Source: Candidatus Pacearchaeota archaeon
Lineage (GTDB): Archaea > Nanobdellota > Nanobdellia > Pacearchaeales > GW2011-AR1
Direction: 5' to 3'
Assembly: GCA_016181895.1 (NCBI GenBank)
Contig: JACOYL010000013.1
Location: forward strand, 1 to 42,668
Length of the DNA stretch: 42,668 nucleotides
The translations under genes and the position numbers were made by a program. Shown in pieces: positions 15,956 to 34,089 of the stretch; the stretch's first letter is position 1, and each line of letters opens with the position of its first letter. The notes beneath the pieces were generated by a model. It did no database searches and was not told the DNA's origin. It saw nothing but the letters and a program-made list of their open reading frames with translations.

Positions 15956-15978
15956 ACAGAAATGTATTTAAATTAAAT
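15956..15978 (+). promoter_or_regulatory. promoter box shared with the gene at 16906
   Basis: A 23-bp sequence containing GTATTTAAATTAAAT, identical to 16868-16890. It lies 40 nt before the ATG at 15996, with the TATA-like TATTTAAA about 31 nt before that ATG. The identity suggests common control of the two membrane-protein genes. Confidence 0.6.
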
Positions 15979-15995
15979 CCTGCATTTATTAAATC

Positions 15996-16499
15996 ATGGC
16001 AGAAGTGACATTCTTGAGCAATTGGATTGTTGCAAAATTCATACTCCCTTTTTTGCTGGTTTTTTTCATTTTGTTTGCAATTCTCGAGAAGACAAAAGTT
16101 TTGGGGGAAAGGCATCAGCTTAACGCCTTTGTCTCATTTATCGTGGGGTTGATTTTCGTCGGCGCGATTTTCCCGAAGGAAGTCGTTGGAAATTTGATTC
16201 TATTTTTGACTGTGGCGATGATTGTCGTTTTCGTGACTTTGCTTCTTTGGGGTTTTATTTCGGGAGGAGATGCAAAACTCGAAGGATGGGTTAAAAAACT
16301 TTCCGGAATCGTTCTCATTGCAGCAGTGATAATAGCGATTTTCTGGGCTGTCGGATTGAGGGTTGAATTCCTAAATAATTTAGTTGACTTTTTGTTTTAC
16401 TCCTCGTGGAGCGGAACATTCTGGACAAATGTTCTTTTCATTGGAGCGATTGCAATTGCAATCGCCGTTGTTTTGAAGACGAAAGGAAGCAGCGGTTAA
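15996..16499 (+). CDS. multi-pass membrane protein, pilus-locus associated
   Basis: 167 residues with about five hydrophobic helices: N-terminal WIVAKFILPFLLVFFILFAI, then two in the middle and LFIGAIAIAIAVVLKTKGSSG at the end. A short polar loop (SGGDAKLEGWVKK) separates them. No enzyme motif is seen. Family not recognised. It shares an identical promoter box with the next membrane-protein gene and lies at the left edge of the pilus-like locus, so it may be a membrane component of that apparatus. Confidence 0.6.
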   Translation: MAEVTFLSNWIVAKFILPFLLVFFILFAILEKTKVLGERHQLNAFVSFIVGLIFVGAIFPKEVVGNLILFLTVAMIVVFVTLLLWGFISGGDAKLEGWVKKLSGIVLIAAVIIAIFWAVGLRVEFLNNLVDFLFYSSWSGTFWTNVLFIGAIAIAIAVVLKTKGSSG

Positions 16500-16867
16500 A
16501 TTAATGGATAAACTTTTTCTTTTAATCAATTTGTTCCCACCCGCCCACCCCAAAAGAATGTTAACTGCAAATCCAACTTTAATTAGATTAATCAACATAC
16601 CACCAACTTTTATAGGTAGGTTTTTACATTAACCTTTTTATATATCCTCGCGAAGTTGCTCTCCCCGCAACCCGACTTTATTATTAATAATTTTAAAATT
16701 GTTAAAGTCAAATTGCTCTCCCGCCCTAAAAATCCAAATTAATTATAAATCAATCACGACTTTCAATTAATCTATTATTCTGTAACATTAACATGCGAAC
16801 GAACGAAGTGAGTGAGCTGTTTTAATAAATCACAGACAGGGATTATCTTTTTTTCAACAAGTCAAAT
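16500..16867 (+). repeat. intergenic repeat region with G4 box
   Basis: No gene seen. The unit starting GTTCCCACCCGCCC (16533) continues through GTTAACTGCAAATCC to TTTTTACATTAACCTTTTT. A second unit starts TTGCTCTCCCGCCC (about 16713) and runs to ACATTAACATGCGAACG. The ends carry GAACGAACGAAGTGAGTGAG. Confidence 0.7.
16536..16550 (-). other. G-quadruplex motif in repeat unit
   Basis: The + strand reads CCCACCCGCCCACCC; the minus strand is GGGTGGGCGGGTGGG with 1-nt loops. Confidence 0.75.
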
Positions 16868-16890
16868 ACAGAAATGTATTTAAATTAAAT
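16868..16890 (+). promoter_or_regulatory. promoter box shared with the gene at 15996
   Basis: The same 23 bp as 15956-15978 (core GTATTTAAATTAAAT), 38 nt before the ATG at 16906. The flanking sequence differs, so the identity is confined to the promoter. Confidence 0.6.
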
Positions 16891-16905
16891 TTGATATTCT
16901 TTTGT

Positions 16906-17472
16906 ATGTTAACGGGAGGGATTTTCTTGCAGACTTACGGTTTCTTCGGGGGAACAATTGGAAATGTCCTTGCCCAATGGGAGCAACTCGGGGTTTTCAG
17001 CTATGCTCTTCCGTTTTTGATAATTTTTGCAATAATTTTCGGAGTTCTTTCAAGGATGGACATGTTCAAAAACAAGTCAATTCACATGGTTATTTCCCTC
17101 GCCGTTGCATTGATGGCTTTGCAATTCGGATTTGTCACGACTTTTTTTTCAGAGATTTTTCCAAGACTTGGAATCTGGCTCTCTGTCATTCTAGTAATCT
17201 TGATTGTCTTTGGGATATTTAATCCAGGAAACAAATGGCCAACAGGATTGATGGTTTTAATCGGAGGGATAATTGTTGTGGTAATTTTGGCGCAAAGCTT
17301 TGGAACGAATTGGATTTATCCAAATTATTGGTTTAACCAAAATGCGCCGGCAATAATAATTATAATTGCAATCTTGTCATTGATAGGATGGGTTTGGTCT
17401 TCGCAAACACCGCAGGAACCGTTGATAAAACCATTTGTTGATAAATTGTTTACAACACACGGAAAGCCATAA
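16906..17472 (+). CDS. multi-pass membrane protein, pilus-locus associated
   Basis: 188 residues from the ATG at 16906 (a TTG at 16891 is inside the promoter region). About five hydrophobic helices are seen, including YALPFLIIFAIIFGVLSRMD and LIGGIIVVVILAQSFG, with a short soluble C-terminus (SSQTPQEPLIKPFVDKLF). Not recognised. The layout resembles the neighbour at 15996: first helix, then a short charged loop, then paired helices. The two may be distant paralogues under one promoter type. Confidence 0.6.
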   Translation: MLTGGIFLQTYGFFGGTIGNVLAQWEQLGVFSYALPFLIIFAIIFGVLSRMDMFKNKSIHMVISLAVALMALQFGFVTTFFSEIFPRLGIWLSVILVILIVFGIFNPGNKWPTGLMVLIGGIIVVVILAQSFGTNWIYPNYWFNQNAPAIIIIIAILSLIGWVWSSQTPQEPLIKPFVDKLFTTHGKP

Positions 17473-17478
17473 ATCAAG

Positions 17479-18135
17479 TTATCTTTTATGATGTTTCTTT
17501 TTTCCAGAATGAGTTGCATGTTCTTCGCGTTTTGCATGATGCGGCGTGTGTTTTCCGACCAGAGAAGGAACGACTTTTGAAAACGAATCCTGCATCATCT
17601 CCATTTCCTTTTCCGTCTGCTCGAGTTTTCTGCCATACGAGCCGACTTTTTCAAGAATTTGAATTTGCAAAGTGTCCATCAAATGTTCCAGCCTTTTCAG
17701 CTTTTCTGTCATGGATTCAATTTTTCCTTCTGCAAGAGATTTGAAATCAGAGACTTCCTTCAGTTGCTTCTGCATTTTCTGGATTTTTTCATTGAAAACC
17801 TGCTCTGAAATTTCTATGACAGTGCTTGTATCCAAGCCTCCGGGAACATAAGACTCTTCATATCCTTGCTGCGGCGTGTATTGCTGTTGCTGATAAGGCT
17901 GGTATCCCCCTTCCTGGAATCCAGATTCATCCTGGGCTTTTGGAGTGTACTGCTGTTCTTGAAATCCGGGTTCCGGAGGAGTGTATTCGTCGGAAACAGC
18001 CTGCTTTATCTGCGCCTGTCCAAGAGCATCTGAAATTGCCTTGGGCGCAATTCCTCCCTCTTGAAGAGTTCTTACTATTTCCTCGTCGTCAATTCCCTGA
18101 TTCCTCATTTGCATCACCTGATCCAAGACACCCAT
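17479..18135 (-). CDS. coiled-coil protein with N-terminal UBA-like helix bundle
   Basis: 218 residues, soluble. Residues 1-45 (QGIDDEEIVRTLQEGGIAPK) resemble a small UBA/CUE-like three-helix fold. About 50-100 is a Gln/Tyr/Pro-rich linker with YQPYQQQQYTPQQG, and 105-190 is a long coiled coil. A His/Lys-rich tail ends HSGKKKHHKR. Together with the next coiled-coil gene it recalls the soluble coiled-coil proteins encoded beside archaeal filament machines (ArlC/D/E type). That comparison is by context and shape, not by sequence identity. Confidence 0.6.
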   Translation of the reverse strand: MGVLDQVMQMRNQGIDDEEIVRTLQEGGIAPKAISDALGQAQIKQAVSDEYTPPEPGFQEQQYTPKAQDESGFQEGGYQPYQQQQYTPQQGYEESYVPGGLDTSTVIEISEQVFNEKIQKMQKQLKEVSDFKSLAEGKIESMTEKLKRLEHLMDTLQIQILEKVGSYGRKLEQTEKEMEMMQDSFSKVVPSLVGKHTPHHAKREEHATHSGKKKHHKR

Positions 18136-18303
18136 TTTTTGTTTACTCCTTCATCCCCCTAATTCGCAACCTTGCTCGTTGTGAATTTAGCAAACTTCTC
18201 TCGCAAAATCGCCCTCTCCCAAAGAGAATAGTTAATATTAAACACCCTACTCTTTCTTTTAATTTTATTGTTGATGGTTTCATTAGTTAACATTTTATTT
18301 TTT
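18136..18303 (+). repeat. intergenic repeat unit
   Basis: CTAATTCGCAACCTTGCTCG, then GAATTTAGCAAACTTCTCTC, then a CCCTCTCCC box and GTTAATATTAAAC, ending AGTTAACATTTTATTT. Same + orientation as the other copies although both neighbours are minus-strand genes. Confidence 0.65.
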
Positions 18304-18633
18304 TTAATTTTCCTCCTTGTGTTTTTTTGCAAATTCCAAAGGCTGAAACATCCTCGCCTGTTTTTTCAATATTTCCAAATCGTCTTTTCGCGCAAATTTT
18401 CCCATCTCGCTTGAAACCAAGTCGAGAAAAGTTTTTATTTTTTCAACATCGTCCTTCATTTTCTCGACGTCTTTTTTAAGCTCCAAAATCCTGAGAGAAG
18501 TTTCTTCTTTAAAATCCACGAGATTTTGCCCGATTAAAAGAAGCCTGTCTTTCAAAATATTTTGTTTTTCTTCAACGTCTTTCAAGCGGAAATTTCCCTG
18601 GAAATTTGCCTGAGGCTGATAATCACCGTCCAT
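18304..18633 (-). CDS. small coiled-coil protein
   Basis: 109 residues. The N-terminus is polar (MDGDYQPQANFQGNF); residues 18-80 form heptad-rich helices (DVEEKQNILKDRLLLIG, DVEKMKDDVEKIKTFLD) and the end is FARKDDLEILKKQARMFQPL. It is soluble and likely pairs with the UBA-like coiled-coil protein next to it. Shape and context suggest a cytoplasmic accessory of the pilus-like apparatus. Family not firmly recognised. Confidence 0.6.
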   Translation of the reverse strand: MDGDYQPQANFQGNFRLKDVEEKQNILKDRLLLIGQNLVDFKEETSLRILELKKDVEKMKDDVEKIKTFLDLVSSEMGKFARKDDLEILKKQARMFQPLEFAKKHKEEN

Positions 18634-18655
18634 AAAAAATCAAGGAGAAAATAGT

Positions 18656-20605
18656 TTAAATTTGTTGCGCTCTCTCATCCGAGGGATAAACTATTCCTGC
18701 ACCATCTGGCAATTCCATATATGGGTCAGGTATTTGTGGATTAAGTCCTTTCAGTTCTTTTAAACCGTGTCCATTATAAAACGCAAAATCTGCCAGAGTT
18801 GTTGATCTTGGAATATTTAAAACCCGTCCGATTCCCACTTCATCAACAATTCCATTAATCAACTTAATATTTCTTGTAAGTTCTTTATATCCCCCTCTTG
18901 CATACTTTTCTGCTATTTTCCATGGAAAGTCTCCTTTTTGCACAGTGTATTCCATTGGTTTTTTCGAAACAACATGAACGCCAAATCCGTTTGAAGGCTT
19001 TATGGAATAAAATTCAGGATATTGCGTCTTCAATACATGCATCATTGCCTTGTGTTTTGCTATATATTCAACATTCTCCAAAATCGATTCAGGCGTTTTA
19101 GCCCCAAACCTTTCTGCAAACTCAAAGGGAATATACAAGACTTGCCCAACTTTAAGTTCTTTTGGGTTTTTCATTCCGTTAAGATTCATTATCTCGGAAC
19201 GGTTTTTCCAAGGGATTCCTCTTAATCCCATTATTTTACTTAGCGTGTAACCCTTTTTTATTTTAACATTAGTATACCACTCTACAATTTTTTCCCCCCT
19301 GAATGCGAAAAAATCCATCAAAGAAATATTCTTGCAATTGTTTTCATCAACAAACGGCTTGAATTTTCCGGAACCTCCGTTGAATGCTTTAATCGCCAAA
19401 TCTGTGTTGCATAATGTTTTTTCCAAATCGCTTAAATATTTGGCTGCAGCCTTTGTTGATAAAATAGGATTTAATCTTTCATCATACACTATTTCTTCTA
19501 TTTTCTTCCCGCTTGTGTCGTAACCTAAAATCTCCCTTACTATTTTCAGTCCGTATCTCTGCGCGGTTTCCTCCATGAATTGCCAAAGACCCAAAGCCTC
19601 TTTTTCAGATACCGCATCTTTTTTCCATCCAGATTCTATAATAGGCAGAACTGCCATTTCTTCTTCAACATTATATTGGTCCAAGATGTGTTTTACTTCG
19701 GGGATTTCTCTCTCTGCTTTTCTCATTGTTCTTTCAAGAGAAATTATTCTTCCCCTGTTTTCTCTTATACTTGGGTCAAATTTTTTGATTTCTTCCGCAA
19801 TCAAAGTCCCATAAACCCCCTCAGGATTTTCCTGCATGGCTTTTGCCAGCGAAAAAACTTTTGTCTTGTCAAATTTGTACGGTTTTTCCATATATCTTGA
19901 ATAATCCATCTCTTTTGATTCTTGAACAAAAACTTTTTTGCCCTCGCTTATAAATTCTTCAAGTATGCTTTCATCTTCTTCTTGTTCTTCTTCAACAATT
20001 TCCCCATTTTCTCCGACGGCAGCATCATAAAGATTCGATTTTTGTTCGTTGAGAACAACCCCTTCAAGATTTCCAAATCTGTAAAAGAAATCAGCAACAG
20101 AATTTTTTAATCTGTTTGCGTAATTTGCCGTCGCATTTCTAGCTTTTTCAAAGGCATTTTTGAGATCCTGTTTTAATTCACGATGTTTTTCCATTGGAAT
20201 TTCCGGAATCATTGCAGGAATTTGAAAATCAGGATGAGATGCCCGATAAATTATTTCATTATTAGAATTTTCAGACAATTGCGCATTTTCAAAATAATTT
20301 TCAACATTTGAAACAAGATTTCTGTATCCTGAAATTTCAGGCATGTCATAATTCTGCGGGCTTAACAACAATGCGGTTAACCCCGCGGCGGCAATTCTTG
20401 TTGCATTGAAAATTTTTTTAACAGGATGCTTTTGGACGGTTTTTTTCTTTTTGTACATCCCATATGCTTTATTATCTTTTTCTATTTCCTTGATTCTACT
20501 TTGTTTTCTTTTTTCCATGTCCATTTTCATTGCCATTTGCGAATGATTCAATTTATTTATATTATGAGAAGGCACGTTCAACAAAACCCCCCACGAGTAT
20601 TCCAT
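18656..20605 (-). CDS. membrane-anchored lytic transglycosylase (SLT/MltD-like) with LysM repeats
   Basis: 649 residues. A basic N-terminal part and one membrane helix (about 68-82, TRIAAAGLTALLL) are followed by a long linker with an acidic stretch (VEEEQEEDES). The lysozyme-like SLT domain spans about 300-415, with catalytic Glu E324 in PIIESGW, then GLWQFMEETAQRYGL (339-353) and AFNGGSGKF. Two LysM-like modules follow (about 445-495 and 560-610, MEYTVQKGDFPWKIAEKY). This architecture cuts or binds peptidoglycan in bacteria. Archaea have none, so the target is probably bacterial, or the enzyme acts on a glycan of its own envelope. It is divergent from the pilus ATPase gene. Confidence 0.85.
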   Translation of the reverse strand: MEYSWGVLLNVPSHNINKLNHSQMAMKMDMEKRKQSRIKEIEKDNKAYGMYKKKKTVQKHPVKKIFNATRIAAAGLTALLLSPQNYDMPEISGYRNLVSNVENYFENAQLSENSNNEIIYRASHPDFQIPAMIPEIPMEKHRELKQDLKNAFEKARNATANYANRLKNSVADFFYRFGNLEGVVLNEQKSNLYDAAVGENGEIVEEEQEEDESILEEFISEGKKVFVQESKEMDYSRYMEKPYKFDKTKVFSLAKAMQENPEGVYGTLIAEEIKKFDPSIRENRGRIISLERTMRKAEREIPEVKHILDQYNVEEEMAVLPIIESGWKKDAVSEKEALGLWQFMEETAQRYGLKIVREILGYDTSGKKIEEIVYDERLNPILSTKAAAKYLSDLEKTLCNTDLAIKAFNGGSGKFKPFVDENNCKNISLMDFFAFRGEKIVEWYTNVKIKKGYTLSKIMGLRGIPWKNRSEIMNLNGMKNPKELKVGQVLYIPFEFAERFGAKTPESILENVEYIAKHKAMMHVLKTQYPEFYSIKPSNGFGVHVVSKKPMEYTVQKGDFPWKIAEKYARGGYKELTRNIKLINGIVDEVGIGRVLNIPRSTTLADFAFYNGHGLKELKGLNPQIPDPYMELPDGAGIVYPSDERAQQI

Positions 20606-20731
20606 TTTATTTTGAAATGTTTATAAATCTTGCCTTTTGTAACTATTATATAATTGTAACAATACATTCCCTAATTTATATATAAGATATTTAAAGTTCT
20701 TTATATGTTTTTATGTGCTAAGGAGAATAAG

Positions 20732-20829
20732 ATGCAATTTAAATTAAAACCCGCGGTTTTGCATAAAATCGCATTCAGGAAAAATGCAATTTAGATTAAA
20801 ATTAAACTTTTGCATAAAATCGCATTAAA
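20732..20829 (+). repeat. tandem duplication of the pilus ATPase start region
   Basis: Units of 52 bp (20732-20783) and 46 bp (20784-20829) both begin ATGCAATTTA and share TTTTGCATAAAATCGCATT; the true gene start at 20830 begins the same way. The first copy has a Shine-Dalgarno-like AAGGAG and would encode a 20-residue peptide starting MQFK; the second a 14-residue peptide starting MQFR. They may act as upstream ORFs. Confidence 0.7.
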
Positions 20830-23118
20830 ATGCAATTTAGGGAAGGAACGCCGCTTTATTCTTACGAGGTGCAAAGGGACGGGGGGGAAGACGTGGTTTA
20901 TGTGAATTACCTCGGGGCGCCGTTTGTTCCGAGCCTTTCCGATTCCAACGAAGTGATGGAAAAAACAGTCGATGTTCTCATAGAAAATCCGAACATCTCG
21001 AGGATTGTTTTCGTGCAGCAGAAAAATTACAATTACGATTTCAGGGAAACTTCGATGTTGCTGGAAATCGCGCAGCTTTACGTTTATCTCATCAAGCAGG
21101 AAAAAATCCTGAGCCAGGAAAAACTCGTGACTTCGCATCAGAGATTTTTTTCGCAGAGATACAATCAGGTTTTCACTTTCCTTTTCCTGCTGAAGAGGGA
21201 TCCGATTTCAGCCCACTCCGAGATAAAAAAACTTCTTGTCGAGGCAAACATTTTTTTCGATAAAATCTCAACAGAATTTAAGATAGACCAGAAAAATTAT
21301 CTTGTCTTGCTGGAGAAAATTCTCGGGCTCTTGGAAAAGACGAGATTGATTCAAACAGCGCTTCCATACATGGAAAATTATCAGAAGGGGAACAGGGAAA
21401 TTTACAACAAGATTTTTCGCCCCGATGTCATCCCGAATTTCACATTTACAAGATTGGTTTTTGATTTACCCGAGGATTCCGAAATCATAAATCAGTACAA
21501 AATTGCAGAAGGAGGCCATGACGAGTCTTTTGTCACGATTTTGAAAAAGAAAGACGAATCGAAACTTGTCTATCATTTGATTCCGCCGGAAAATTCATTG
21601 AACGAAGAGCATAACATTCTTCTCAATTTGGCGAGAAATGTTTTGATTGAGCATCAGCCTCGAGCAGAGGAATTCACGGACACGGAAAAAACTCGGCAGG
21701 TTTTCCTGAATATTTCAAAGGACTTGCTTCAGGATTTGGCTTCCACGAAGGGAATTTCACTTAGTTATACAAATCTGAATAAACTCGCGAGAATTTTGAT
21801 AAGGCATACAATCGGTTTCGGATTGATTGAAATTCTCCTGCAGGACAAAAATCTCCAGGATATTTTCATAAACGCGCCGATTCCGATGACAAATATTTTC
21901 ATTCGACATCAGGAATACGACGAATGCACGACAAACATTTTGCCGAGCCAGGAAGACGCGGATTCATGGGCTGCGAAATTCCGTTTAATCTCCGGAAGAC
22001 CTTTGGACGAGGCGAATCCGATTCTTGACACGCAACTTGAAATAGGGGAAATCAGGGCCAGAATCGCGGTGATTCAGAAACCTTTATCTCCTGATGGGCT
22101 GGCTTACGCAATCAGAAGACACAGAGAGGAACCTTGGACTCTTCCATTGTTCATAAAAAACAGAATGATATCTCCTCTTGCCGCGGGCTTGCTTAGTTTT
22201 TTGATTGACGGCTCGAGGACTTTGCTTGTCGCGGGAACAAGAAGCTCCGGAAAAACTTCGTTGCTTGGAAGCCTTATGCTGGAGATAATTCCAAAATACA
22301 GAATAATAGTTATCGAGGATTCTCTTGAACTGCCGATGGAATCATTAAGAAAATTGAATTACGACATCGTGAGAATGAAAGTCCGTTCCGCTTTGCTGAG
22401 AACAACGACAGAAGTTTCCGCCGACGACGGAATCAGAACCAGTTTGAGATTGGGAGATTCCTGCCTGATTATCGGAGAAGTAAGAAGCGTTGAAGCCAAA
22501 GCATTGTATGAAGCGATGAGAATTGGAGCATTGGCAAATGTTGTCGCAGGAACGATTCATGGTGCGAGCCCTTACGGGGTTTTTGACAGGGTTGTAAACG
22601 ACTTGGAAGTTCCGACGACAAGTTTCAAAGCCACGGACATAATCGCGGTTGCAAATCCTATAAAATCTCCTGATGGATTGCACTCGTGGAAAAGGCTTGT
22701 GCAACTCGCGGAAGTAAGGAAACACTGGAAAAAAGATCCCTTGGAAGAAAAAGGTTTTGTCGATTTGCTTAGATACAATGTCGAGAAAGACGTTCTTGAA
22801 CCGAGCGACGATTTAATCAACGGGGATTCCGAAGTGATAAAGGACATTGCCTCGAATGTAAAAGGCTGGTCTGGAAACTGGGACGCTGTTTATGACAACA
22901 TTCTTTTGAGAGCGAGGATAAAAGAGGAAATCGTCAAAGTCGCGGAAAAGACCGGAAATTTTAATTTGCTCGAAGCCGGTTTCAATGTTTTGTCAAACGA
23001 CGCTTTTCACAAGATTTCCGACAATGTAAGAGAGGAAATCGGACTTCCCTTAAGCGAAAGAGTTTTTCCTCTCTGGCAGAAGTGGCTGAATGCGGAAATA
23101 AGAAAGAAAAGAATATAA
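20830..23118 (+). CDS. type II/IV secretion-type ATPase of a pilus-like system (GspE/ArlI/PilB family)
   Basis: 762 residues. The N-terminal half (to about 290) is specific to this family. The RecA-like motor has Walker A GTRSSGKT (469-476), an acidic box IVIEDSLELP, a Walker B-like LIIGEVRS with E550, and the His box GTIHGASPYGVFDRVV. It hydrolyses ATP on the cytoplasmic side to drive pilin assembly through the membrane platform protein. It is followed by a 2-TM protein and the platform protein, the usual order of archaeal pilus operons. No ArlH or other archaellum-specific gene is visible, so an adhesion-type pilus is more likely. Confidence 0.93.
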   Translation: MQFREGTPLYSYEVQRDGGEDVVYVNYLGAPFVPSLSDSNEVMEKTVDVLIENPNISRIVFVQQKNYNYDFRETSMLLEIAQLYVYLIKQEKILSQEKLVTSHQRFFSQRYNQVFTFLFLLKRDPISAHSEIKKLLVEANIFFDKISTEFKIDQKNYLVLLEKILGLLEKTRLIQTALPYMENYQKGNREIYNKIFRPDVIPNFTFTRLVFDLPEDSEIINQYKIAEGGHDESFVTILKKKDESKLVYHLIPPENSLNEEHNILLNLARNVLIEHQPRAEEFTDTEKTRQVFLNISKDLLQDLASTKGISLSYTNLNKLARILIRHTIGFGLIEILLQDKNLQDIFINAPIPMTNIFIRHQEYDECTTNILPSQEDADSWAAKFRLISGRPLDEANPILDTQLEIGEIRARIAVIQKPLSPDGLAYAIRRHREEPWTLPLFIKNRMISPLAAGLLSFLIDGSRTLLVAGTRSSGKTSLLGSLMLEIIPKYRIIVIEDSLELPMESLRKLNYDIVRMKVRSALLRTTTEVSADDGIRTSLRLGDSCLIIGEVRSVEAKALYEAMRIGALANVVAGTIHGASPYGVFDRVVNDLEVPTTSFKATDIIAVANPIKSPDGLHSWKRLVQLAEVRKHWKKDPLEEKGFVDLLRYNVEKDVLEPSDDLINGDSEVIKDIASNVKGWSGNWDAVYDNILLRARIKEEIVKVAEKTGNFNLLEAGFNVLSNDAFHKISDNVREEIGLPLSERVFPLWQKWLNAEIRKKRI

Positions 23119-25970: not shown

Positions 25971-25991
25971 CAATCTATGGGACTAAATTTA

Positions 25992-26918
25992 ATGGAACAA
26001 TCAGAAATATCTTTTGATTTAAAGAGTATTCTCAAGAAAAATAAAAATTATTTTCTTATTATGAATTATCCTGAAAATTCTGAAAATGAAGATGAAATAA
26101 GTATAGTAGAAGAGGATATCTTTAGACTTAAAGAAGAATTGAAAAAAATTAAAGAAAAAGACAAAATAAATATAATTTTAATATTAAATTCTAATGGGGG
26201 AAATCCATATACTACTTATAAAATAGTAAATATTCTCCACAAAAAATGTGATTATTTAATCGTTTTAATTCCTCATTTTGCTAAAAGTGCAGCAACTCTA
26301 CTAAGTTTAGGAGCAAATTCTATCATTATGGATGAGCAATCTGAATTAGGTCCATTAGATTTACCATTTAGAGAACATCCAATTAAAGGTGGAATAAAAC
26401 CCTTATCTGCTTTAGATGGGATAAAACCACTCTCTTACTTATTTGATTCAATAACAACTATAGCTATTGATGATTTAGGATTAAAAATAAGACAAGATAC
26501 TGGATTAAGTATTAAGGAATGTATTGAAATTGCCTTAAAATTTTCAAGTGATTACCTTCAACCAATTACATCTCAATTAGACCCTTGGATTTTAAATATG
26601 TGTCAAAGGTCCCTACAAATAGCAAAAATATATGGAACTAATTTATTAAAAAATTATATGTTTTATGATGATCCTCTTAAATCTAAAAAGGCAGATGATA
26701 TTGCACATAATTTAGTTTATGGATTTCCTACACATTCCTTTGCAATTACTATCGACCAAGCACAAAAATTAGGGTTAAATGTTGTAAATTCTATAGAATA
26801 TGATAAATGGGATTTAATTTCTGATTTTTATAACAAAATTTTAAGAAGACAAAAAACAAAATACATAAAGATTATGAATTTAAACGAAATTGAAGATTTG
26901 TGTAAAAAGATTGATTAG
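25992..26918 (+). CDS. SDH/ClpP-fold serine protease-like protein
   Basis: 308 residues from the ATG at 25992. It matches the serine dehydrogenase proteinase group (ClpP/crotonase fold): IILILNSNGGNPYTTYKIVN forms the GG oxyanion region (G69-G70), the nucleophile is S99 in PHFAKSAATLLSLGAN, and IIMDEQSELGPLD follows as in the family. No signal peptide or membrane helix. It interrupts the pilus locus, is much richer in A/T than its neighbours (ATA, AAT and TTA codons dominate) and is probably acquired. An opposite-strand microprotein overlaps its stop. Its substrate is unknown. Confidence 0.8.
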   Translation: MEQSEISFDLKSILKKNKNYFLIMNYPENSENEDEISIVEEDIFRLKEELKKIKEKDKINIILILNSNGGNPYTTYKIVNILHKKCDYLIVLIPHFAKSAATLLSLGANSIIMDEQSELGPLDLPFREHPIKGGIKPLSALDGIKPLSYLFDSITTIAIDDLGLKIRQDTGLSIKECIEIALKFSSDYLQPITSQLDPWILNMCQRSLQIAKIYGTNLLKNYMFYDDPLKSKKADDIAHNLVYGFPTHSFAITIDQAQKLGLNVVNSIEYDKWDLISDFYNKILRRQKTKYIKIMNLNEIEDLCKKID

Positions 26919-27084: not shown

Positions 27085-27140
27085 TATATATGAATTTTTC
27101 TACTGAAAACATTTATTAATATATTCTGAGTAAATATTTT

Positions 27141-27296
27141 ATGCAGAACAAAAGAGGCATAATCTCGGATTATCTTCCTTGGTTGATTATCGGAATAGTT
27201 GTTCTTGTGATAATCCTTCTGGCGATTTTCATTTTGAGAGAAAAAGGGATTTCATTGATAGACAAAATTAAAAATCTGTTTAAATTCGGCAACTAA
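27141..27296 (+). CDS. class III prepilin-like microprotein
   Basis: 51 residues: MQNKRG then IISDYLPWLIIGIVVLVIIL. The basic leader ending in RG, followed directly by a hydrophobic helix, is the site cut by archaeal prepilin peptidase (PibD type). A short basic tail follows. It could be the major or a minor subunit. First gene of the pilin operon; the next ATG is one base after its stop. Confidence 0.75.
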   Translation: MQNKRGIISDYLPWLIIGIVVLVIILLAIFILREKGISLIDKIKNLFKFGN

Positions 27297-27297
27297 T

Positions 27298-27426
27298 ATG
27301 GAACTCACGATAGGGCAACTTATAAAAATCGTGCTTGGCGTTATTGTTATAGTGGCTGTGGTTTTCGGGCTTGTGAAATTCGGCGGTTCATTGGTTGATT
27401 TCATAAAAAACGTCGTGCCGGGATGA
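27298..27426 (+). CDS. 42-residue single-TM microprotein in the pilin operon
   Basis: MELTIGQLIKIVLGVIVIVA and a second hydrophobic stretch (VVFGLVKFGGSLVDFIKNVV). There is no basic-Gly leader, so it is not a standard prepilin. It overlaps the next gene by ATGA, so translation is coupled. It may assist pilin insertion or form part of the filament base. Confidence 0.65.
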   Translation: MELTIGQLIKIVLGVIVIVAVVFGLVKFGGSLVDFIKNVVPG

Positions 27427-28130
27427 AGAATAAAATGAGAAAAAAGAATAAAAGGGGATTTTTGCTCGCGGAAGAAACGCTGAAAATCGTGGTCGCGTTG
27501 ATTGCAATAACATTTCTAATTTATTTTTTGACTTCCCTTTATTTTGCGAGAATAAACGAGATTGAATATGAAAAAGCAAAAACAACTTTGATAGATTCCG
27601 ATGAAAGCTTGAAGGCGACGATTGAAAATCTTAACGAAGGGGAAATCAGAGAGTATCTGATAAACGATCCTGATGATTGGAATATTGTTTCATTTACAGT
27701 AAATACAAAGCCGAATTTATGCCCGGGAAATTCGTGTTTGTGCCTATGCAAGGATTCAAGCAAAAAAATCGAACTGCAATCAAAGAAATGCGACAAGGAA
27801 AACGAGGGAATCTGCATATCTGCAAATATTGACAGAGACGTGAAGATAAAAATACAGAAAGACATAACGAAAATTTCAATACAGAAAACAGGCAACGAGA
27901 TTTCAATAAGCGAAATTGGAATTGCTCCAGAAACAAATGTCAAGACTTCTTTTATCGGCAACGAAGACAATGAAGTTTATGTTTCCGAGGAAACAGGAAA
28001 AGTTGAAGAGGAAGGGGTTTTTGTGGCAACATTAAATGCTATTGAACAGGGTTATTATTGGCTCAGAGACAAACTCGACGGCGGAAAGGCAAACGTCGGA
28101 GAAGGAGGAACAGCAGGAATAAAAGGATGA
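27423..28130 (+). CDS. class III prepilin-like protein, Cys-rich
   Basis: 235 residues. The leader MKNKMRKKNKRG precedes FLLAEETLKIVVALIAITFL with Glu at +5 after the predicted cut, the position used in type IV pilins to pair with the next subunit. The exported part has a Cys cluster (LCPGNSCLCLCKDSSKK, SKKCDKENEGICIS) and ends in a Gly-rich tail. Likely a minor pilin or tip subunit. Confidence 0.75.
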   Translation: MKNKMRKKNKRGFLLAEETLKIVVALIAITFLIYFLTSLYFARINEIEYEKAKTTLIDSDESLKATIENLNEGEIREYLINDPDDWNIVSFTVNTKPNLCPGNSCLCLCKDSSKKIELQSKKCDKENEGICISANIDRDVKIKIQKDITKISIQKTGNEISISEIGIAPETNVKTSFIGNEDNEVYVSEETGKVEEEGVFVATLNAIEQGYYWLRDKLDGGKANVGEGGTAGIKG

Positions 28131-28310
28131 AGTTCTATTCATTCACTAATCTGCAAAATTTATTCTTCCCACCCAAGAGAGCCGATATTAATCTATAAAC
28201 GATTTTTATCAATTTCATAGAGTATACGTTAATTTTTTCAAATTTTTAATCCATAAATAAAAGGGGTGATAAAATTTCCACACTTTTATCATGAATTTTT
28301 TATTGAGATA
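28131..28310 (+). repeat. intergenic repeat unit
   Basis: TTCCCACCCAAGAGAGCCGA, then TATTAATC, TTTTTATCAATTTCAT and GTTAATTTTTTC. One degenerate unit in + orientation; nothing else seen. Confidence 0.6.
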
Positions 28311-28341
28311 AATTTATAACTTTTAAAATTCTTGATGAAAA

Positions 28342-28443
28342 ATGACTCACGATGAATTGATTAAATTCCTGATTTGGATTGTGTTTTTTCTGATTGTTTT
28401 ATCCGGTTTGTACTTCATGCTGAGGAAAATAGGTGTTTTATAA
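28342..28443 (+). CDS. 33-residue single-TM microprotein in the pilin operon
   Basis: Starts MTHDELIKFLIWIVFFLIVL and ends FMLRKIGVL. One hydrophobic helix, no basic-Gly leader. It stops five bases before the next pilin ATG, so it is probably cotranscribed. It resembles the microprotein at 27298 in design. Confidence 0.55.
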   Translation: MTHDELIKFLIWIVFFLIVLSGLYFMLRKIGVL

Positions 28444-28448
28444 AAAAG

Positions 28449-29408
28449 ATGAACAAAGAAAATAAAAGAGGTGAATTGACGACGCAGCAGATAGTTGCAA
28501 TCACGATTTTGATAGTGAGCTTCATCGTGATTTTGTTTTTGCTTTTCCGGTTGAATTTGGGAGAGGAAACAACCAAGGAACTTTGCAGGAATTCTGTTTT
28601 GCTGAAAAGCAAATCCATCTTTCCGGAAGAAGCAATCCAATTGAAATGCTACAGGAATTATAAATGCGTAACCTTTGACGGAAGTTGCGAGGGCTTGAAC
28701 AATCCAGAGGTTGCAAAAGTTGAAAACCAAGAGGAGATTTACAATGAAATCGCGGAAGAAATGACAGACTGTTGGTATGTGTTCGGCGAGGGAAAAGTCG
28801 ATTACATTGGAAACTCGATTACGGAATTGACGAGAAACAACTATTGCTCTATTTGTTCCCAAATTTCATTTGATAACAGCTTGACGGAAATTGAAGGAAT
28901 TGACGGTTCAATCAGTAAGGACGGGCTTTATCAATATCTTCAGAATAATAAAATTCAAGGACAGGATTTCACTTATTTGGAATACCTTCTTGGAACAAAT
29001 GATTTGGAAAAAATAAAAGCAGATTATGCATCGCAAGCAAAAACAAGCAGCATTTCTTTCGGAGAAATTCCGATAGGAAAGCAGTCATTTGTCGTCATGG
29101 GAATAACAAGCAATTTGGAGGCTTACAAATGGATAGGGGCCGGTGCAGTAGCAGGTACAGTAGCGGGTGCTATTATTGGAACATTTACTCCTGTTGGATG
29201 GATTGCTGGAGCAGTTATTCTTGGTGTTGCAACCGCTACAGCCGCCGGAGGAGCGACAGAAATAGACGCATTGACAGGAATTGAAATCGGCGGAATAACT
29301 GTCAAGGGGATCGGAATTGACAATCAATTTCTCTCGCCGACTTTGATTGAAGCCGAATCTGAAAAATTCAAGGCGTTGAACTGCGAGGAAATCCTGACGT
29401 TTAGTTAG
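28449..29408 (+). CDS. class III prepilin-like protein with a second hydrophobic domain
   Basis: 319 residues from the ATG at 28449. The leader MNKENKRG precedes ELTTQQIVAITILIVSFIVI. The exported part has Cys pairs (LKCYRNYKCVTFDGSCEG, NNYCSICSQ) and, at about 230-275, a Gly/Ala-rich hydrophobic hairpin (GAGAVAGTVAGAIIGTF, WIAGAVILGVATATAAGGA) like those in membrane-active or glycine-zipper proteins. It may be a pilin that also inserts into a membrane. Confidence 0.7.
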   Translation: MNKENKRGELTTQQIVAITILIVSFIVILFLLFRLNLGEETTKELCRNSVLLKSKSIFPEEAIQLKCYRNYKCVTFDGSCEGLNNPEVAKVENQEEIYNEIAEEMTDCWYVFGEGKVDYIGNSITELTRNNYCSICSQISFDNSLTEIEGIDGSISKDGLYQYLQNNKIQGQDFTYLEYLLGTNDLEKIKADYASQAKTSSISFGEIPIGKQSFVVMGITSNLEAYKWIGAGAVAGTVAGAIIGTFTPVGWIAGAVILGVATATAAGGATEIDALTGIEIGGITVKGIGIDNQFLSPTLIEAESEKFKALNCEEILTFS

Positions 29409-29442
29409 ATAATTTTATTAACATCTTCTTCTATTTTCAATT

Positions 29443-29832
29443 ATGAAAAAAAGAGGAAATATTTTAACAGAAAACATTGTTTTTATCTTATTGACTTTGA
29501 TATTTTTCGCAATAATAATAACTTTTATTTTTTCCCGTTCAGGAGGTTCTGCAATCTTGGAAGAGGAACTCGCGAAGCAAACGGCATTGCTAATTGATTC
29601 CGCAAAGCCGGGAATGATAATAAAAATAAATGTCGAGGATGCTTTGGAAAAAGCCAAGGCGGAAAAGTACAGCCAAAATATAATCACAATTCAGGGAAAT
29701 ACAGTGACTGCAAAATTACGGGAGAAAGGAGGATATTCGTATTCTTTTTTCAATGAATTTCAAACCCCTCCCTCCATCTTTCCAGACACCTCTTCGGATG
29801 AAATTAAAGATTACGTGATTTTTGTAGATTAA
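29443..29832 (+). CDS. class III prepilin-like protein
   Basis: 129 residues: leader MKKRG, then NILTENIVFILLTLIFFAII with Glu at +5. The soluble part is short (about 95 residues). The next gene starts one base after its stop. Minor pilin likely. Confidence 0.75.
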   Translation: MKKRGNILTENIVFILLTLIFFAIIITFIFSRSGGSAILEEELAKQTALLIDSAKPGMIIKINVEDALEKAKAEKYSQNIITIQGNTVTAKLREKGGYSYSFFNEFQTPPSIFPDTSSDEIKDYVIFVD

Positions 29833-29833
29833 A

Positions 29834-30940
29834 ATGCCCTTGCTAAAAGATAAAATCGGCGCCGATAAAATTTTGTCAATTTACTGGTTTGCCATTTTGT
29901 TCATAATTTCAATCGGAATTTTCTCAATGGTTTATGTTTTTTACAAGACTCCTTTTGACGTTCGGGGAATGGAATCCGGGATTTTAACATCGAAGATTGC
30001 AGAATGCGTTTCGCAGCAGGGAAAATTGGATTCAAAATGGCTGCAGGATTTGGAGGATAAAAATTCAAATTCTTTGTCAGATATTATCAATTATGCCAAC
30101 CAAAACCAAGTCAACGGAAAAACCTGTTATTGCGGAGATGATTGCAACGATTATGCAAAATACATTTCAAGTTCTGCATCAAACAATGAAATTAAGGACC
30201 CGCTTTTTTTATTTTCTTTAATCATGCAGGAAAGCCAGTGCAGGAAAATAGAATGCTCCGACAGTTCGTGCGGTTTAACACAAATAAATTTGAAAAAACA
30301 TTGCGGAACAAAAGGGCTGCCCTCTGATTTGGAAGAATGTAAAGATGTTTTGATAAATGATATTGAGAAGAGCATTGAAGTCGGCTCCGAAATTTTGAAA
30401 GAAAGTTATGACACTTACAATGATGGAAAAACATTTTCCGATGCATGCACCAGTGAATACAAAACAAAAACTTATTTTGGGTGGGATGCCGCTTTAAGGG
30501 GATACAATGGATGGGGTTGCGATCAAAAATATCCACAACAAGACAAATATGTAGATGATGTTAACGGGGTTTACAATTCATTAAAGAATCTTTTTGGCGC
30601 CGAAACAAGCGAGAAATCTGAAATTGTTGAAGAATGCAACCTGAACTTCAACTCTGAATTTGAAGACGAGCAATTTTACATTCAGGTTGATTTCTACAAT
30701 CTTGCGGCATTTGAAACCCAAAACATTGAGGGAAGGAGCGTTATTTTATCGGAACCAAGCGCAACAATTTTCGACGGAAATCAGAATTTGAAGGCGGATT
30801 GCGAAATCCAGAAAGAAAAAGATTTTGAAAAACAATCAAAATGCTCGGAGGGAAGGTTTTATTCTGTTGATGAAAATAATCTTCCCTATGTTGTAAGAAT
30901 ATTAACTGCCGTGAGAAAAACCGAAAAAAATGTCATATAA
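29834..30940 (+). CDS. membrane-anchored lysozyme-like (SLT) protein within the pilin operon
   Basis: 368 residues. An N-terminal membrane helix (about 15-37, SIYWFAILFIISIGIFSMVY) is followed by a lysozyme-like transglycosylase domain at about 118-255: catalytic-type E133 in FSLIMQESQCRK, CGLTQINLKKHCG (146-158), GSEILKES and the closing DAALRGYNGWGC. Several Cys could form disulfides outside the cell. A C-terminal domain of about 110 residues (FYIQVDFYNLAAFETQ) is unknown. It is tightly packed between pilin genes (1-bp gap, 11-bp overlap), so it must work with the filament. Confidence 0.8.
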   Translation: MPLLKDKIGADKILSIYWFAILFIISIGIFSMVYVFYKTPFDVRGMESGILTSKIAECVSQQGKLDSKWLQDLEDKNSNSLSDIINYANQNQVNGKTCYCGDDCNDYAKYISSSASNNEIKDPLFLFSLIMQESQCRKIECSDSSCGLTQINLKKHCGTKGLPSDLEECKDVLINDIEKSIEVGSEILKESYDTYNDGKTFSDACTSEYKTKTYFGWDAALRGYNGWGCDQKYPQQDKYVDDVNGVYNSLKNLFGAETSEKSEIVEECNLNFNSEFEDEQFYIQVDFYNLAAFETQNIEGRSVILSEPSATIFDGNQNLKADCEIQKEKDFEKQSKCSEGRFYSVDENNLPYVVRILTAVRKTEKNVI

Positions 30941-31412
30941 AAACAGCAAAAAAGGACAAGTCGCGGAGACAACGACATGGATAGTCGCGACAGTGATAAT
31001 CATCGTGATTCTTACGATTTCCGTCTATGCCGCTTCAATTTTATCAGAGGTTGTGAAAACAATCGACACGGCGGATTCTGTTTCTTTTTTGAAAGAGCAA
31101 CGGACAAATATTTTCCTGAAGGAATCGCTTTTTGCATTCGCATTGACGAAAAGCAAAGACGGAAAAAACATTTACAGCCAGGTTGAAAATGAAAACAAGC
31201 TGAATGATTTTGCATCCGGCTTTGCAATAGAGATTTTTAAGAGGGTCCACAATTCTCCAGATGTAATTTCTATTTTTCTGAGATACAATGAGCAAAATTA
31301 CAATGTTGTTTCATACGGGTTTTTTGAAGAAAAATTCAAGGTTGTGGAAAAAATTAAAATCAACAAGGATTCGGCACTGGAACTTGTGTTGCATTTAGAA
31401 ACAGGCAAATAA
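30930..31412 (+). CDS. class III prepilin-like protein
   Basis: 160 residues: leader MSYKNSKKG, then QVAETTTWIVATVIIIVILT with Glu at +4. The soluble part has no Cys. It overlaps the SLT gene by 11 bases; the next pilin follows after one base. Confidence 0.72.
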   Translation: MSYKNSKKGQVAETTTWIVATVIIIVILTISVYAASILSEVVKTIDTADSVSFLKEQRTNIFLKESLFAFALTKSKDGKNIYSQVENENKLNDFASGFAIEIFKRVHNSPDVISIFLRYNEQNYNVVSYGFFEEKFKVVEKIKINKDSALELVLHLETGK

Positions 31413-31413
31413 A

Positions 31414-31815
31414 ATGAAAAATAAAAATATAATGAAAGACAAGAAAGGAGACATTTCAATCACACTGCTTGTATTGGGTGTTTTTGCAGTCTGCAGCCTG
31501 GCTTTGTTCAGCTTTTATATTTCCGGAATAAACGGGAAAGAAACCGCAATAAGAGTCGGAATTGTTGAAAAAATAAAATCGCTTGAGGGAGAAATAAGAT
31601 TTTATCAAAGTCCGGAGATAAACAAAAACCCGATGGAAATAATGGAATTGTTTGACAAGGGAATCACAGAGGGAAATTTGATTTTCATCGGAGTAAAAGA
31701 CGGCGACAAGTATATAATTACAGGAACCTATTTTGAATATGACCTTGAATTGTTCGGCTTTGGAATCGGCGAAAAGAAAACAATATTCTCGGTTGAGTAC
31801 AGTTTTGTTCCGTAA
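31414..31815 (+). CDS. class III prepilin-like protein
   Basis: 133 residues: leader MKNKNIMKDKKG, then DISITLLVLGVFAVCSLALF. The soluble domain is small and beta-rich (IRFYQSPEINKNPMEI, YIITGTYFEYDLELFGFG). Last gene of the tightly packed pilin run; a triple repeat array follows. Confidence 0.7.
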   Translation: MKNKNIMKDKKGDISITLLVLGVFAVCSLALFSFYISGINGKETAIRVGIVEKIKSLEGEIRFYQSPEINKNPMEIMELFDKGITEGNLIFIGVKDGDKYIITGTYFEYDLELFGFGIGEKKTIFSVEYSFVP

Positions 31816-32240
31816 CAATTCGTAAATCGCGTTCCCACCCGCCCACCCAAGGGAACAGATTTTAATGATGAATCTAATGATGAATCAAATTTTTATAAAC
31901 TTTAAAAGTAGGATTGTATGTTAACATAATTCAAATAAATTTCTCTCGCAAAGTCGCCCGCCCTCCCTAAGAACAAAGGTTAATAATTAAGAAAATCTCA
32001 TCAACTATTTTAAATTCAGGGTTGGACATTAATCTTTTTTAAATTTGTCTCGCAATCTTATCAACCCACCCAAGGAAACCACTGTTAATAGTAAAACCGA
32101 CTTTAATCAAATTAATCAACACGCCGTCACCAACTTTTATGAGTAAGTTTTTACATTAATCTTTTTCATCTAAAACTGCTGCATTATGAAAATACTTTAA
32201 CTGATTTTTCCAACAAGGAATTATAAGAAACATTTTTAAA
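31816..32240 (+). repeat. array of three repeat units with about 110-bp period
   Basis: The C-rich boxes start at about 31834, 31948 and 32060, followed by TTTTAATGATGAATC, GGTTAATAATTAAG and TGTTAATAGTAAAACCG respectively, and end in ACATTAATCTTTTTTAAATT and TTTTTACATTAATCTTTTTC. The junction TCTCGCAAAGTCGCCCGCCC shows how one unit leads into the next. This is the clearest view of the unit. No gene seen. Confidence 0.8.
31834..31848 (-). other. G-quadruplex motif in repeat unit
   Basis: The + strand reads CCCACCCGCCCACCC, bracketed by the inverted repeat GTTCCC/GGGAAC (31831-31836 and 31851-31856). The minus strand is GGGTGGGCGGGTGGG. Confidence 0.75.
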
Positions 32241-32261
32241 CAAAAATGCATTTAAGAAAAG

Positions 32262-32705
32262 ATGAATAACAAAAAGGGGCAGGGATTGAGTGTCAATGCG
32301 ATAATCCTCATAGTTTTGGGAATTGTCGTGCTTGTGCTTTTGGTTCTGGGCTTCACGATAGGATGGAGCAGAATTCTTCCCTTTATTTCAACAGACAATG
32401 CGGACACGATTGCCACCGCCTGCAGCATCGCGTGTTCCACAAACAGCCAGTTTGATTTTTGCAGCGTCGAGAGGGAATTGAAGGCGGGAGACAATGATTT
32501 GAAAGACGTGACATGCAACTATCTTGCGGAGAAAAGGCCGGAATTCGGAACAGATTCATGTTCAACTGTTTCATGCGACAATGTTGTCATCGTCGACGTT
32601 GTTGCTCAGGAATTGCTCCAAAATCAGTGCACGGGAAACGAGAACAAGATTATTCAGGCTCTTATAGGAGACACATTAGTTTCACTTGATTGTTCTTCAA
32701 GTTAA
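32262..32705 (+). CDS. class III prepilin-like protein, Cys-rich
   Basis: 147 residues: leader MNNKKG, then QGLSVNAIILIVLGIVVLVL. The soluble part has about ten Cys (ATACSIACSTNSQFDFCSV, DVTCNYLAEK, SCSTVSCDN), suggesting disulfide bracing outside the cell. It has its own promoter (TTTTTAAA at -29), so it may be a major or separately tuned pilin. A basic microprotein gene follows after one base. Confidence 0.78.
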   Translation: MNNKKGQGLSVNAIILIVLGIVVLVLLVLGFTIGWSRILPFISTDNADTIATACSIACSTNSQFDFCSVERELKAGDNDLKDVTCNYLAEKRPEFGTDSCSTVSCDNVVIVDVVAQELLQNQCTGNENKIIQALIGDTLVSLDCSSS

Positions 32706-32706
32706 A

Positions 32707-32808
32707 ATGGATTACGTTTTTTCTGAAAAACGAAAGAAGAAAAAAGACAAGAAACGCGAAAGAAAAAAACATCCTTACAAGAAAGGGGGGAGAAACAGAA
32801 TTAAATAA
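32707..32808 (+). CDS. 33-residue very basic microprotein
   Basis: Starts MDYVFSEKRKKKKDKKRERK and ends HPYKKGGRNRIK; nearly all Lys/Arg after residue 7. It starts one base after the pilin stop. It could bind nucleic acid or an acidic surface, or be a chance frame in A-rich DNA. The tight placement favours a gene. Confidence 0.45.
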   Translation: MDYVFSEKRKKKKDKKRERKKHPYKKGGRNRIK

Positions 32809-33214
32809 TCCGACCGAGCCAACTCCCGAATTCGCAACCCTGCTCGTTGTGAATTTAGCAAACTTGTCTCGCAAAATTGCTCACCACCCACTCCTAAAAA
32901 CCATGCTAATGACAAATCCGACTTTGAGAAACTGATAAATTAATGATAAAGAACTTTTACATGTTAACCTAATTCCAAATAAATTTCACTCGTGGAGTTG
33001 CTCACCAACCAAGATTAAATAACAAAACAGTTTTCATCAATTGTAACTTCACATTAACCTTCTTAAAATAACCCTCAAGAATTTCCCATATTCTCCCGAG
33101 AAATCATTTTAACTGAAAAAAGATTTTTATCATTGTTGCCAATTTAGCAATATAAATAACTATGGTAAATTTTTGATTAACCTTTTGTTTTTTCGGATTC
33201 AACATTCGGCTAAT
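32809..33214 (+). repeat. intergenic repeat region (three degenerate units)
   Basis: It begins with the 5' part seen also in the methyltransferase insertion: CCAACTCCCGAATTCGCAAC, CCTGCTCGTTGTGAATTTAG, then CTCGCAAAATTGCTCACC and GCTAATGACAAATCCGAC. Two further units follow near 32990 and 33080, ending CACATTAACCTTC and GATTAACCTTTTG. No gene seen. Confidence 0.7.
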
Positions 33215-33222
33215 TTTATAAA
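33215..33222 (+). promoter_or_regulatory. TATA box of the prepilin peptidase gene
   Basis: TTTATAAA begins 29 nt before the ATG at 33244. Confidence 0.6.
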
Positions 33223-33243
33223 CATCCATTTGTTTTCATAAAA

Positions 33244-34089
33244 ATGATTGAAATAATTTTCCTTATGGTTCTTGCCTTGAGCTTTATGACTTTCGCCGTC
33301 TTTGCGGATTTCAGGTACAGGATTGTTCCAAACTGGTTGAACTTTTCATTGATTGCCTTTGTTCTTGCATTCAGATTTTTTTATTCGCTTTTCAACTCTG
33401 ATTTTAATTTTTTATATCAGGGGCTTATCGGCTTGGGAATTTTTTTCCTTATCGGAAACGGGCTTTATTACGGGAGAATGTTCGCGGGCGGCGATGCAAA
33501 ACTGATGATTGCACTCGGAGCAATTTTGCCTTTTTCAGAAAGCCTTCCTGTTAACTTGCAGAATTTTCTTTTGTTTTTCATTTTGTTTTTGTTTTCAGGC
33601 GCGTTTTATGGAATCACGGCAAGCATTTTTTTGTTTGCAGGAAACCATGACGAATGCATCAGGGAAATAAAAAGGCAATTTTGGAAAAACAGGAAATTAT
33701 TTTATTTGGCGATTGTTTTCGCGGCAATAACGTTGATTTTCGGCTTTAATTTCGGCAACAGCATATTATTTTATCCCGGAATTTTGATTTTAATCCTCCC
33801 GTTTTTTTACATTTTTGCAAAAACCGTCGATGAAAAATGCCTTGTTAGGAAAATGAAGACAAAAAACTTGACAGAGGGGGAATGGCTTTACAATGACTTG
33901 AAAATCGGAAAGAAAACAATAAAGGCAAGATGGGAAGGAATCAACAAAGAGGAATTGAAATCGATAAGGAAAAAATTCAAAGAAATAAAAATCAGGCAGG
34001 GAATACCTTTCACTCCCGCTTTTTTGATAAGCTTTGTTTTGCTTGTATGGTTTTATTTCAAGGGGATAAGTATTTTGGGGTTGTTTTGA
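33244..34089 (+). CDS. prepilin peptidase, A24 family (PibD/TadV type)
   Basis: 281 residues. An aspartic membrane protease that removes the basic leader from prepilins. D22 (FADFRYRIVPNWLN) and D84 (MFAGGDAKLMIALGA, the GxGD-type motif) are the catalytic pair. Membrane helices surround both. A charged soluble segment at about 195-260 (WEGINKEELKSIRKKFKEIK) precedes the last helix, as in longer archaeal members. It closes the pilus-like locus and has its own promoter behind a repeat array. Confidence 0.92.
   Translation: MIEIIFLMVLALSFMTFAVFADFRYRIVPNWLNFSLIAFVLAFRFFYSLFNSDFNFLYQGLIGLGIFFLIGNGLYYGRMFAGGDAKLMIALGAILPFSESLPVNLQNFLLFFILFLFSGAFYGITASIFLFAGNHDECIREIKRQFWKNRKLFYLAIVFAAITLIFGFNFGNSILFYPGILILILPFFYIFAKTVDEKCLVRKMKTKNLTEGEWLYNDLKIGKKTIKARWEGINKEELKSIRKKFKEIKIRQGIPFTPAFLISFVLLVWFYFKGISILGLF

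Follow-up and report, generated by a model that had tools for sequence, protein, structure and literature searches.

Bacterial type IV pilins can carry extra functional domains. In modular pilins such as PilB and PilC of Streptococcus sanguinis (Raynaud et al. 2021), most of these modules serve adhesion (vWA, lectin) and two are predicted peptidases (PMC8179133, PMC10191384). Archaeal peptidoglycan hydrolases, for their part, kill bacteria, the tested killers having come from Halogranum culture supernatant (Strock et al. 2025, PMC12352652), and GH23 murein transglycosylases have been reported from Woesearchaeota, described as 'vampiristic' DPANN archaea (Vigneron et al. 2022, PMC9723730). A passage of PMC11291902 states that all cultivated DPANN archaea need archaeal hosts. 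Here, we describe a type IV filament operon from a Candidatus Pacearchaeota archaeon in which one pilin gene, SLT2 (29834-30940, forward strand), appears to have received a lytic transglycosylase (SLT) domain, and we compare it with its counterparts in related genomes. The operon lies in a stretch of 42,668 nucleotides, hereafter the window (contig JACOYL010000013.1 of assembly GCA_016181895.1, our contig C22); the genome comprises 736 kb in 24 contigs and is 89.8% complete with 0.7% contamination. The comparison sample consists of 138 genomes of the same family, from which about 100 filament loci were laid out; in a scan of named genomes, family relatives carry the labels Ca. Pacearchaeota, Nanoarchaeota and Woesearchaeota.

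A predicted lytic transglycosylase within a pilin

The SLT2 protein (368 aa) occupies the position that we call slot D in the pilin order A, A2, B, D, E, F, G. When it was searched against the 138 family genomes, residues 1-77 and 255-368 matched a protein of about 175 aa in most genomes, and residues ~72-258 matched SLT domains of other proteins; the ortholog alignment resolves this into pilin residues 1-72 and ~262-368 surrounding an SLT core of residues 96-254 (30119-30595). The same operon in G078, a genome of the same genus, has a slot D ortholog of 176 aa without the insert, about 75 further slot D orthologs likewise lack it, and the SLT domain is an added module not specific to pilus biology. 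By these comparisons, 29834-30940 is a pilin whose first helix is followed by an inserted lytic transglycosylase, and for this anatomy, taken alone, our confidence is very high. A separate membrane enzyme was considered as the identity of SLT2 and rejected, since pilin D sequence stands on both flanks of the SLT domain.

The domain itself is predicted to be an active GH23/SLT lytic transglycosylase. Its match to PF01464 falls exactly on the Pfam cut-off in a search of the window (2e-4) and reaches 1.3e-5 in a search of the whole genome, in which SLT2 and the neighbouring SLT1 are the sole two proteins matched. It contains the GH23 motifs E133-S134, G147-L148-T149-Q150 and Y224-N225-G226, of which E133, S134, G147 and L148, together with Y224-N225-G226-W227, are invariant across 15 relatives (SLT2 numbering). 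A profile search of PDB sequences gave MltC as best match (9.5e-9), followed by MltE and the type III secretion enzyme EtgA, with E133 aligned to the catalytic position of MltC, which is Glu in the wild type and Gln in another deposited MltC sequence. The core was modelled by AlphaFold (AF2) at a predicted local distance difference test score (pLDDT) of 85-98, and a fold search with it returned MltE, MltF and Slt at a probability near 1, with no E-value below 0.001.

SLT1 (18656-20605, reverse strand) is an MltD-like SLT lytic transglycosylase with two LysM domains (PF01464 4.1e-19, LysM 8e-12), in which E324 lies within an IIES...GLWQF motif. An earlier note on this stretch, made from the sequence alone, had singled out E133 and E324 as the residues on which activity would depend, and both choices agree with these motifs. 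It had also placed two lysozyme-fold enzymes inside the pilin operon: both proteins are there, and SLT2 is indeed joined by a 1-bp junction before it and an 11-bp overlap after it, but SLT1 stands divergently beside the operon and SLT2 is a domain inside a conserved pilin rather than an enzyme in its own right.

The filament operon and its conservation

The type IV filament operon of the window, which is conserved, belongs to a DPANN archaeon of the Pacearchaeota type and brings together an assembly ATPase, a platform protein and a prepilin peptidase in one locus. The ATPase (20830-23118, forward) matches T2SSE (4.8e-13) and archaeal TadA/FlaI-type models; it is present in 136 of the 138 family genomes, with 84% identity within the genus. 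The platform membrane protein (23745-25910, forward, TadC/FlaJ-like, its start set by homology) has a weak T2SSF match (E 0.067) and is therefore assigned by its fixed place after the ATPase and its identity of 58-75% to the relatives' proteins. The prepilin peptidase (33244-34089, forward) matches Peptidase_A24 (6e-15). Class III-like N-termini begin at 27423, 28449, 29443, 30930, 31414 and 32262, with a K-I-G variant at 29834, and at least seven open reading frames (ORFs) of the window have a basic-Gly/Ala motif followed by a transmembrane helix that is kept in relatives. Profile matches, synteny and N-termini thus bear out the earlier note's parts list of ATPase, platform, prepilin peptidase, at least six class III prepilins and coiled-coil accessories. 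Every match of the window to the NCBIfam models of archaellum, bindosome and Tad ATPases is far below cut-off, so that we assign no named archaeal filament subtype.

Across the roughly 100 loci, the order t1, t2, cc2 (reverse), cc1 (reverse), optionally SLT1 (reverse), ATPase, platform, pilins A, A2, B, D, E, F and G, peptidase, HIT (reverse) and OB is strongly kept among nearer relatives and rearranged in distant ones. The small multi-transmembrane protein t1 (15996-16499, forward) lies upstream in the locus, and most loci of the family have a syntenic homolog of it (39-59% identity); a second conserved protein of this kind, t2 (16891-17472, forward), likewise has syntenic homologs. The coiled-coil proteins cc2 (17479-18135, reverse), which is divergent from the ATPase and has syntenic homologs in most loci, and cc1 (18304-18633, reverse), conserved at 45-68% identity among relatives, come next. 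The pilins of slots A (27423-28130, forward) and A2 (28449-29408, forward) have class III N-termini and syntenic homologs. From sequence reading, two short forward ORFs precede them: a 51-aa class III mini-pilin (MQNKRGIISDYLPWL..., 27141-27296), for which G119 has a similar ORF of 52 aa, and a mini-pilin-like hydrophobic ORF of 42 aa (27298-27426).

Two observations concern the ATPase. The window genome encodes a second, distant filament-type ATPase (G000:C10:50374-51279, 33% identity) and may therefore have a second type IV filament system. In four other genomes (G047:C11, G038:C8, G019:C59 and G055:C172), the ATPase is a single open frame of ~1,170-1,320 aa. About 430-510 extra codons, in frame, stand in it close to residue 475-515 of the window's protein and look like an intein.

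Hydrolase domains on the pilins of relatives

Ten genomes of the family sample, the window's included, carry a hydrolase on a pilin or in a pilin slot. SLT domains occur in slot D in the window and in G009, and also in G087, where the protein has a D-type tail and lies at the edge of a contig; at the C-terminus of the slot B counterparts of G064 and G106 (window gene 29443-29832, forward); at the C-terminus of the slot F counterparts of G137 and, from the named-genome scan, Pacearchaeota RBG_19FT_COMBO_34_9 (window gene 31414-31815, forward); and on a first-slot pilin-like protein in G002. The same scan found SLT on a duplicate of pilin G (window gene 32262-32705, forward) in contig L218 (JAHYJW010000004.1), labelled Patescibacteria KA32. 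Amidase_2 domains (E 3e-25 to 1.9e-18) are found in slot D of G064 and G025 and at the C-terminus of the slot E counterpart of G043 (window gene 30930-31412, forward), so that G064 has SLT and Amidase_2 on adjacent pilins. The first slot of G011 holds a membrane-anchored lysozyme2 protein whose N-terminus has no clear class III motif. Outside the family, the archaeon DeMMO2_30 (L242) encodes, within a run of pilin-like ORFs, a class III-type protein of at least 606 aa, cut by the contig end, that bears Peptidase_M23 (1.3e-17) and SLT (1.8e-11).

Several further observations touch on these carriers. Contig L218 shows the archaeal pilus operon in full synteny despite its bacterial label and is probably a misbinned or mislabelled archaeal contig. 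The first-slot protein of G011 (L178:9697-11751, 684 aa) combines Phage_lysozyme2 with an unassigned C-terminal region, in which a Cys/His pattern hints at a cysteine peptidase that Pfam did not confirm, and a second lysozyme2 ORF adjoins it (L178:8757-9353). The enlarged first-slot pilins of L137, L151, L129 and L177 gave no clear Pfam match. In the Aenigmatarchaeota genome DRTY-6_1_bin_65 (L249), a 724-aa membrane SLT protein (8168-10342) lies divergently beside the platform gene of a filament locus whose ATPase is related (46% identity), and the link between pilus and SLT may thus reach beyond the family; no pilus context was seen for the small Aenigmatarchaeota SLT proteins of L245 and L248, which were left out of the counts.

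Among the 138 genomes, 11 of 83 SLT proteins fall inside this locus, which makes up roughly 2-3% of a genome, so that their presence there by chance is unlikely. SLT, Amidase_2 and Lysozyme2 are each more frequent in the locus than its size would predict. Binomial tests, which are indicative only, as they assume independent matches and a locus size that is approximate, give p of about 1e-6 to 4e-5 for SLT, or 2e-4 to 3e-3 minus the window and one duplicate. For Amidase_2, three of 15 matches lie in the locus, each of them on a pilin (p about 0.003 to 0.009), and the two Lysozyme2 matches in total are both in one genome's locus.

The earlier note had held that its idea would fail if the SLT genes were absent from this locus in relatives, and taken strictly they are absent from most, including the same-genus G078 in the case of SLT2. 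A single conserved SLT gene in the operon is ruled out accordingly, as most relatives' loci have none. SLT1 is likewise optional among relatives: its own place, divergent and between cc1 and the ATPase, is taken by an SLT-type protein in G078 (29% identity to SLT1) and G104. The association of the pilus with wall-cutting enzymes aimed at bacteria nevertheless gains strong support from the comparison, since several unrelated hydrolase families recur on the operon's pilins, and the recurring feature, as the compared loci indicate, is the grafting of hydrolase domains rather than one conserved gene.

This grafting has probably happened several times. The argument rests chiefly on the carriers, whose slots and insertion points differ: within slot D alone, the window has its graft behind helix 1 and G009 behind the first strands, and in both amidases it precedes the last hairpin. 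The tree of 36 SLT domains is a lesser argument; pilin-borne domains are interspersed in it with those of giant proteins, with weak support. It has nine label changes, a number as low arising in 182 of 500 shuffles, and one pilin-borne group appears in 0% of bootstrap trees. For a single clade, the approximately unbiased (AU) test gives a borderline result, with p 0.03 when ten rows are included and 0.11 once three divergent rows are dropped. A single origin of all pilin-borne SLT domains is not supported by this weak tree and borderline test. The giant proteins in question, of ~2,000-3,200 aa with C-terminal SLT, are common in the family (L096:5627-12277, L214, L215 and many open frames of 1,900-2,700 aa); several pilin-borne SLT domains have their closest relatives among those of the giants, the window genome has no such giant, and the one in G056 (L096:5627-12277) comes after a 629-aa class III prepilin-like protein.

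Proposed mode of action and alternative explanations

We consider it fairly probable, from the genes compared here, that the operon builds a filament of modular pilins displaying a peptidoglycan hydrolase against bacterial walls. The SLT domain sits between the N-terminal assembly helix of pilin D and what remains of its head; the fusion protein would be processed by the prepilin peptidase and built into the filament as a minor subunit by ATPase and platform. The SLT domain would then be exposed on the outside and, when the filament touches a bacterial partner or prey, cut MurNAc-GlcNAc bonds of that cell's wall; the LysM-SLT neighbour SLT1 would assist as a secreted or anchored helper. The outcome would be a local opening of the wall that could serve attachment, uptake of nutrients or DNA, or killing. 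Several hydrolase families take the same carrier role, which points to peptidoglycan, and hence to bacteria, as the target. The earlier note had named bacterial walls or a pseudomurein-like or other glycan; the comparison favours the bacterial part of this claim, and the pseudomurein or own-wall part is weakened, as no Mur ligase (Mur_ligase_M) or penicillin-binding protein (PBP) transpeptidase matched in the window genome, although control genomes do match. More broadly, we speculate, while leaning slightly towards doubt, that DPANN type IV filaments are enzymatic drills whose interchangeable pilin-borne hydrolases (SLT, Amidase_2, M23, lysozyme2) open bacterial walls on contact, swaps of domains and slots being adaptations to different bacterial hosts or prey.

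Several points weigh against hydrolase display on a filament. Most of the loci (roughly 90%) have no hydrolase domain at all, so that such a domain is not needed for the filament. Pilin D of the window has K-I-G before its helix, and most D orthologs have K-K-G or K-R-G in this class III-like N-terminus. The models of D and B have long N-helices, that of the B-SLT protein with several beta strands ahead of the SLT domain, yet the remaining pilin head of D is poorly modelled and Foldseek with the B-SLT model returned no pilin among its fold matches. Activity and filament display are predictions from the genes, all genomes surveyed are metagenome-assembled genomes, and the lack of wall genes is not absolute in a genome that is 90% complete.

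Four other explanations were considered. The pilin N-terminus could be a mere sorting signal and membrane anchor for a surface enzyme that digests peptidoglycan fragments or attacking bacteria, with no display on a filament. A bulky insert in the pilin head could hamper packing, and the first-slot carriers of G011 and G002 are barely more than a transmembrane helix plus enzyme; the domain is fused, however, to syntenic core pilins that have class III-type N-termini, and not to unrelated anchors, and in bacteria modular pilins are assembled into pili even when they bear large grafted domains (PMC8179133, PMC10191384). We therefore give a surface anchor a small though appreciable probability. 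That the fusion in slot D is an assembly artefact or the non-functional relic of a chance insertion is very unlikely: a genome of the same genus lacks the fusion and the assembly is in 24 contigs, but the reading frame is unbroken across both junctions, D-SLT recurs in G009 and G087, similar fusions occur on other pilins and the active-site motifs are kept.

Type II secretion employs the same parts, and the machine might be a secretion-type pseudopilus that pushes out or releases wall-degrading enzymes as toxins or digestive enzymes. The position of SLT1 next to the operon, with a weak hydrophobic stretch at its N-terminus, would suit such a system, which we nonetheless judge improbable, because the hydrolase domains form one polypeptide with pilins, which are not normally released, and most relatives have the machine with no enzyme beside it. 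Bacteria often have wall hydrolases next to their envelope machines, and the enzymes might let the filament through the archaeon's own wall or anchor it there, in the manner of EtgA in type III secretion, which is among the PDB matches of SLT2, or of LytF in S. sanguinis competence, which, according to a passage of PMC13192262, contributes to pilus extrusion. Remodelling of an own wall is scarcely credible to us, however, in a genome where neither Mur_ligase_M nor Transpeptidase was matched and the controls were positive, and in a family where most members build the machine without the enzyme. Display of the hydrolase on a filament directed at bacteria thus continues to be our preferred reading.

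Neighbouring genes

Between the platform gene and the pilins lies a gene for a ClpP-like serine protease of the SDH type (25977-26918; PF01972, 2.3e-18). It is not seen there in relatives, the GC content over the surrounding kb is 25% compared with 33-45% nearby, and it is probably a recent insertion. A small AbrB-type antitoxin-like ORF followed by a PIN-like protein of 126 aa, a VapBC-like arrangement, occupies 34167-34740 between the prepilin peptidase and the HIT-like gene. A C-rich intergenic repeat (CCCACCCAAGG...TTAAT) surrounds the pilin genes in three or four copies that have diverged, at 28168-28192, 31831-31872, 32054-32095 and 35462-35503. Upstream of the locus, a 975-aa protein (12232-15159) contains a bacterial Ig-like domain (Big_13, 4e-12), and partial relatives of it adjoin the pilus locus in several genomes.

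Comparison with known systems

Modular pilins in bacteria and peptidoglycan hydrolases or GH23 genes in archaea are each known already; it is their union that appears to be new. The earlier note had called the idea apparently undescribed, and our literature search, which covered open-licence PMC articles without preprints, found no report of a pilin-fused peptidoglycan hydrolase. If the proposed mode of action is true, pilins fused to enzymes for bacterial peptidoglycan would point to bacteria as contact partners or prey of a large uncultured group of DPANN archaea, naming for it both a concrete contact machine and a target, and modular pilins would widen from adhesion to enzymatic attack. The hydrolase domains are small, defined and easily expressed, which makes the question directly testable.

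The machinery is that of archaeal type IV filaments (archaellum, bindosome, Tad/Epd-type pili), with ATPase, platform, prepilin peptidase and class III pilins. The enzyme shares the SLT fold, the catalytic Glu and the GL-x-Q motif with MltC, MltE, MltF and Slt of GH23, which are bacterial and act on their own wall, whereas the SLT2 domain lies inside an archaeal pilin. The Halogranum enzymes (PMC12352652) are likewise peptidoglycan hydrolases made against bacteria by archaea without murein, in a text that mentions neither pili nor pilins; SLT/GH23 genes in DPANN genomes have similarly been taken as an attack on bacteria (PMC9723730), in a report of gene presence with zero mention of pili and no pilin fusion. 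As in PilB and PilC of S. sanguinis, a functional domain is grafted on a class III pilin, so that pilin module and extra module are combined in one protein. Unlike those bacterial modular pilins, the modules in the family of the window are predicted peptidoglycan hydrolases, borne by archaeal pilins, placed partly inside the head and spread over several slots of one operon.

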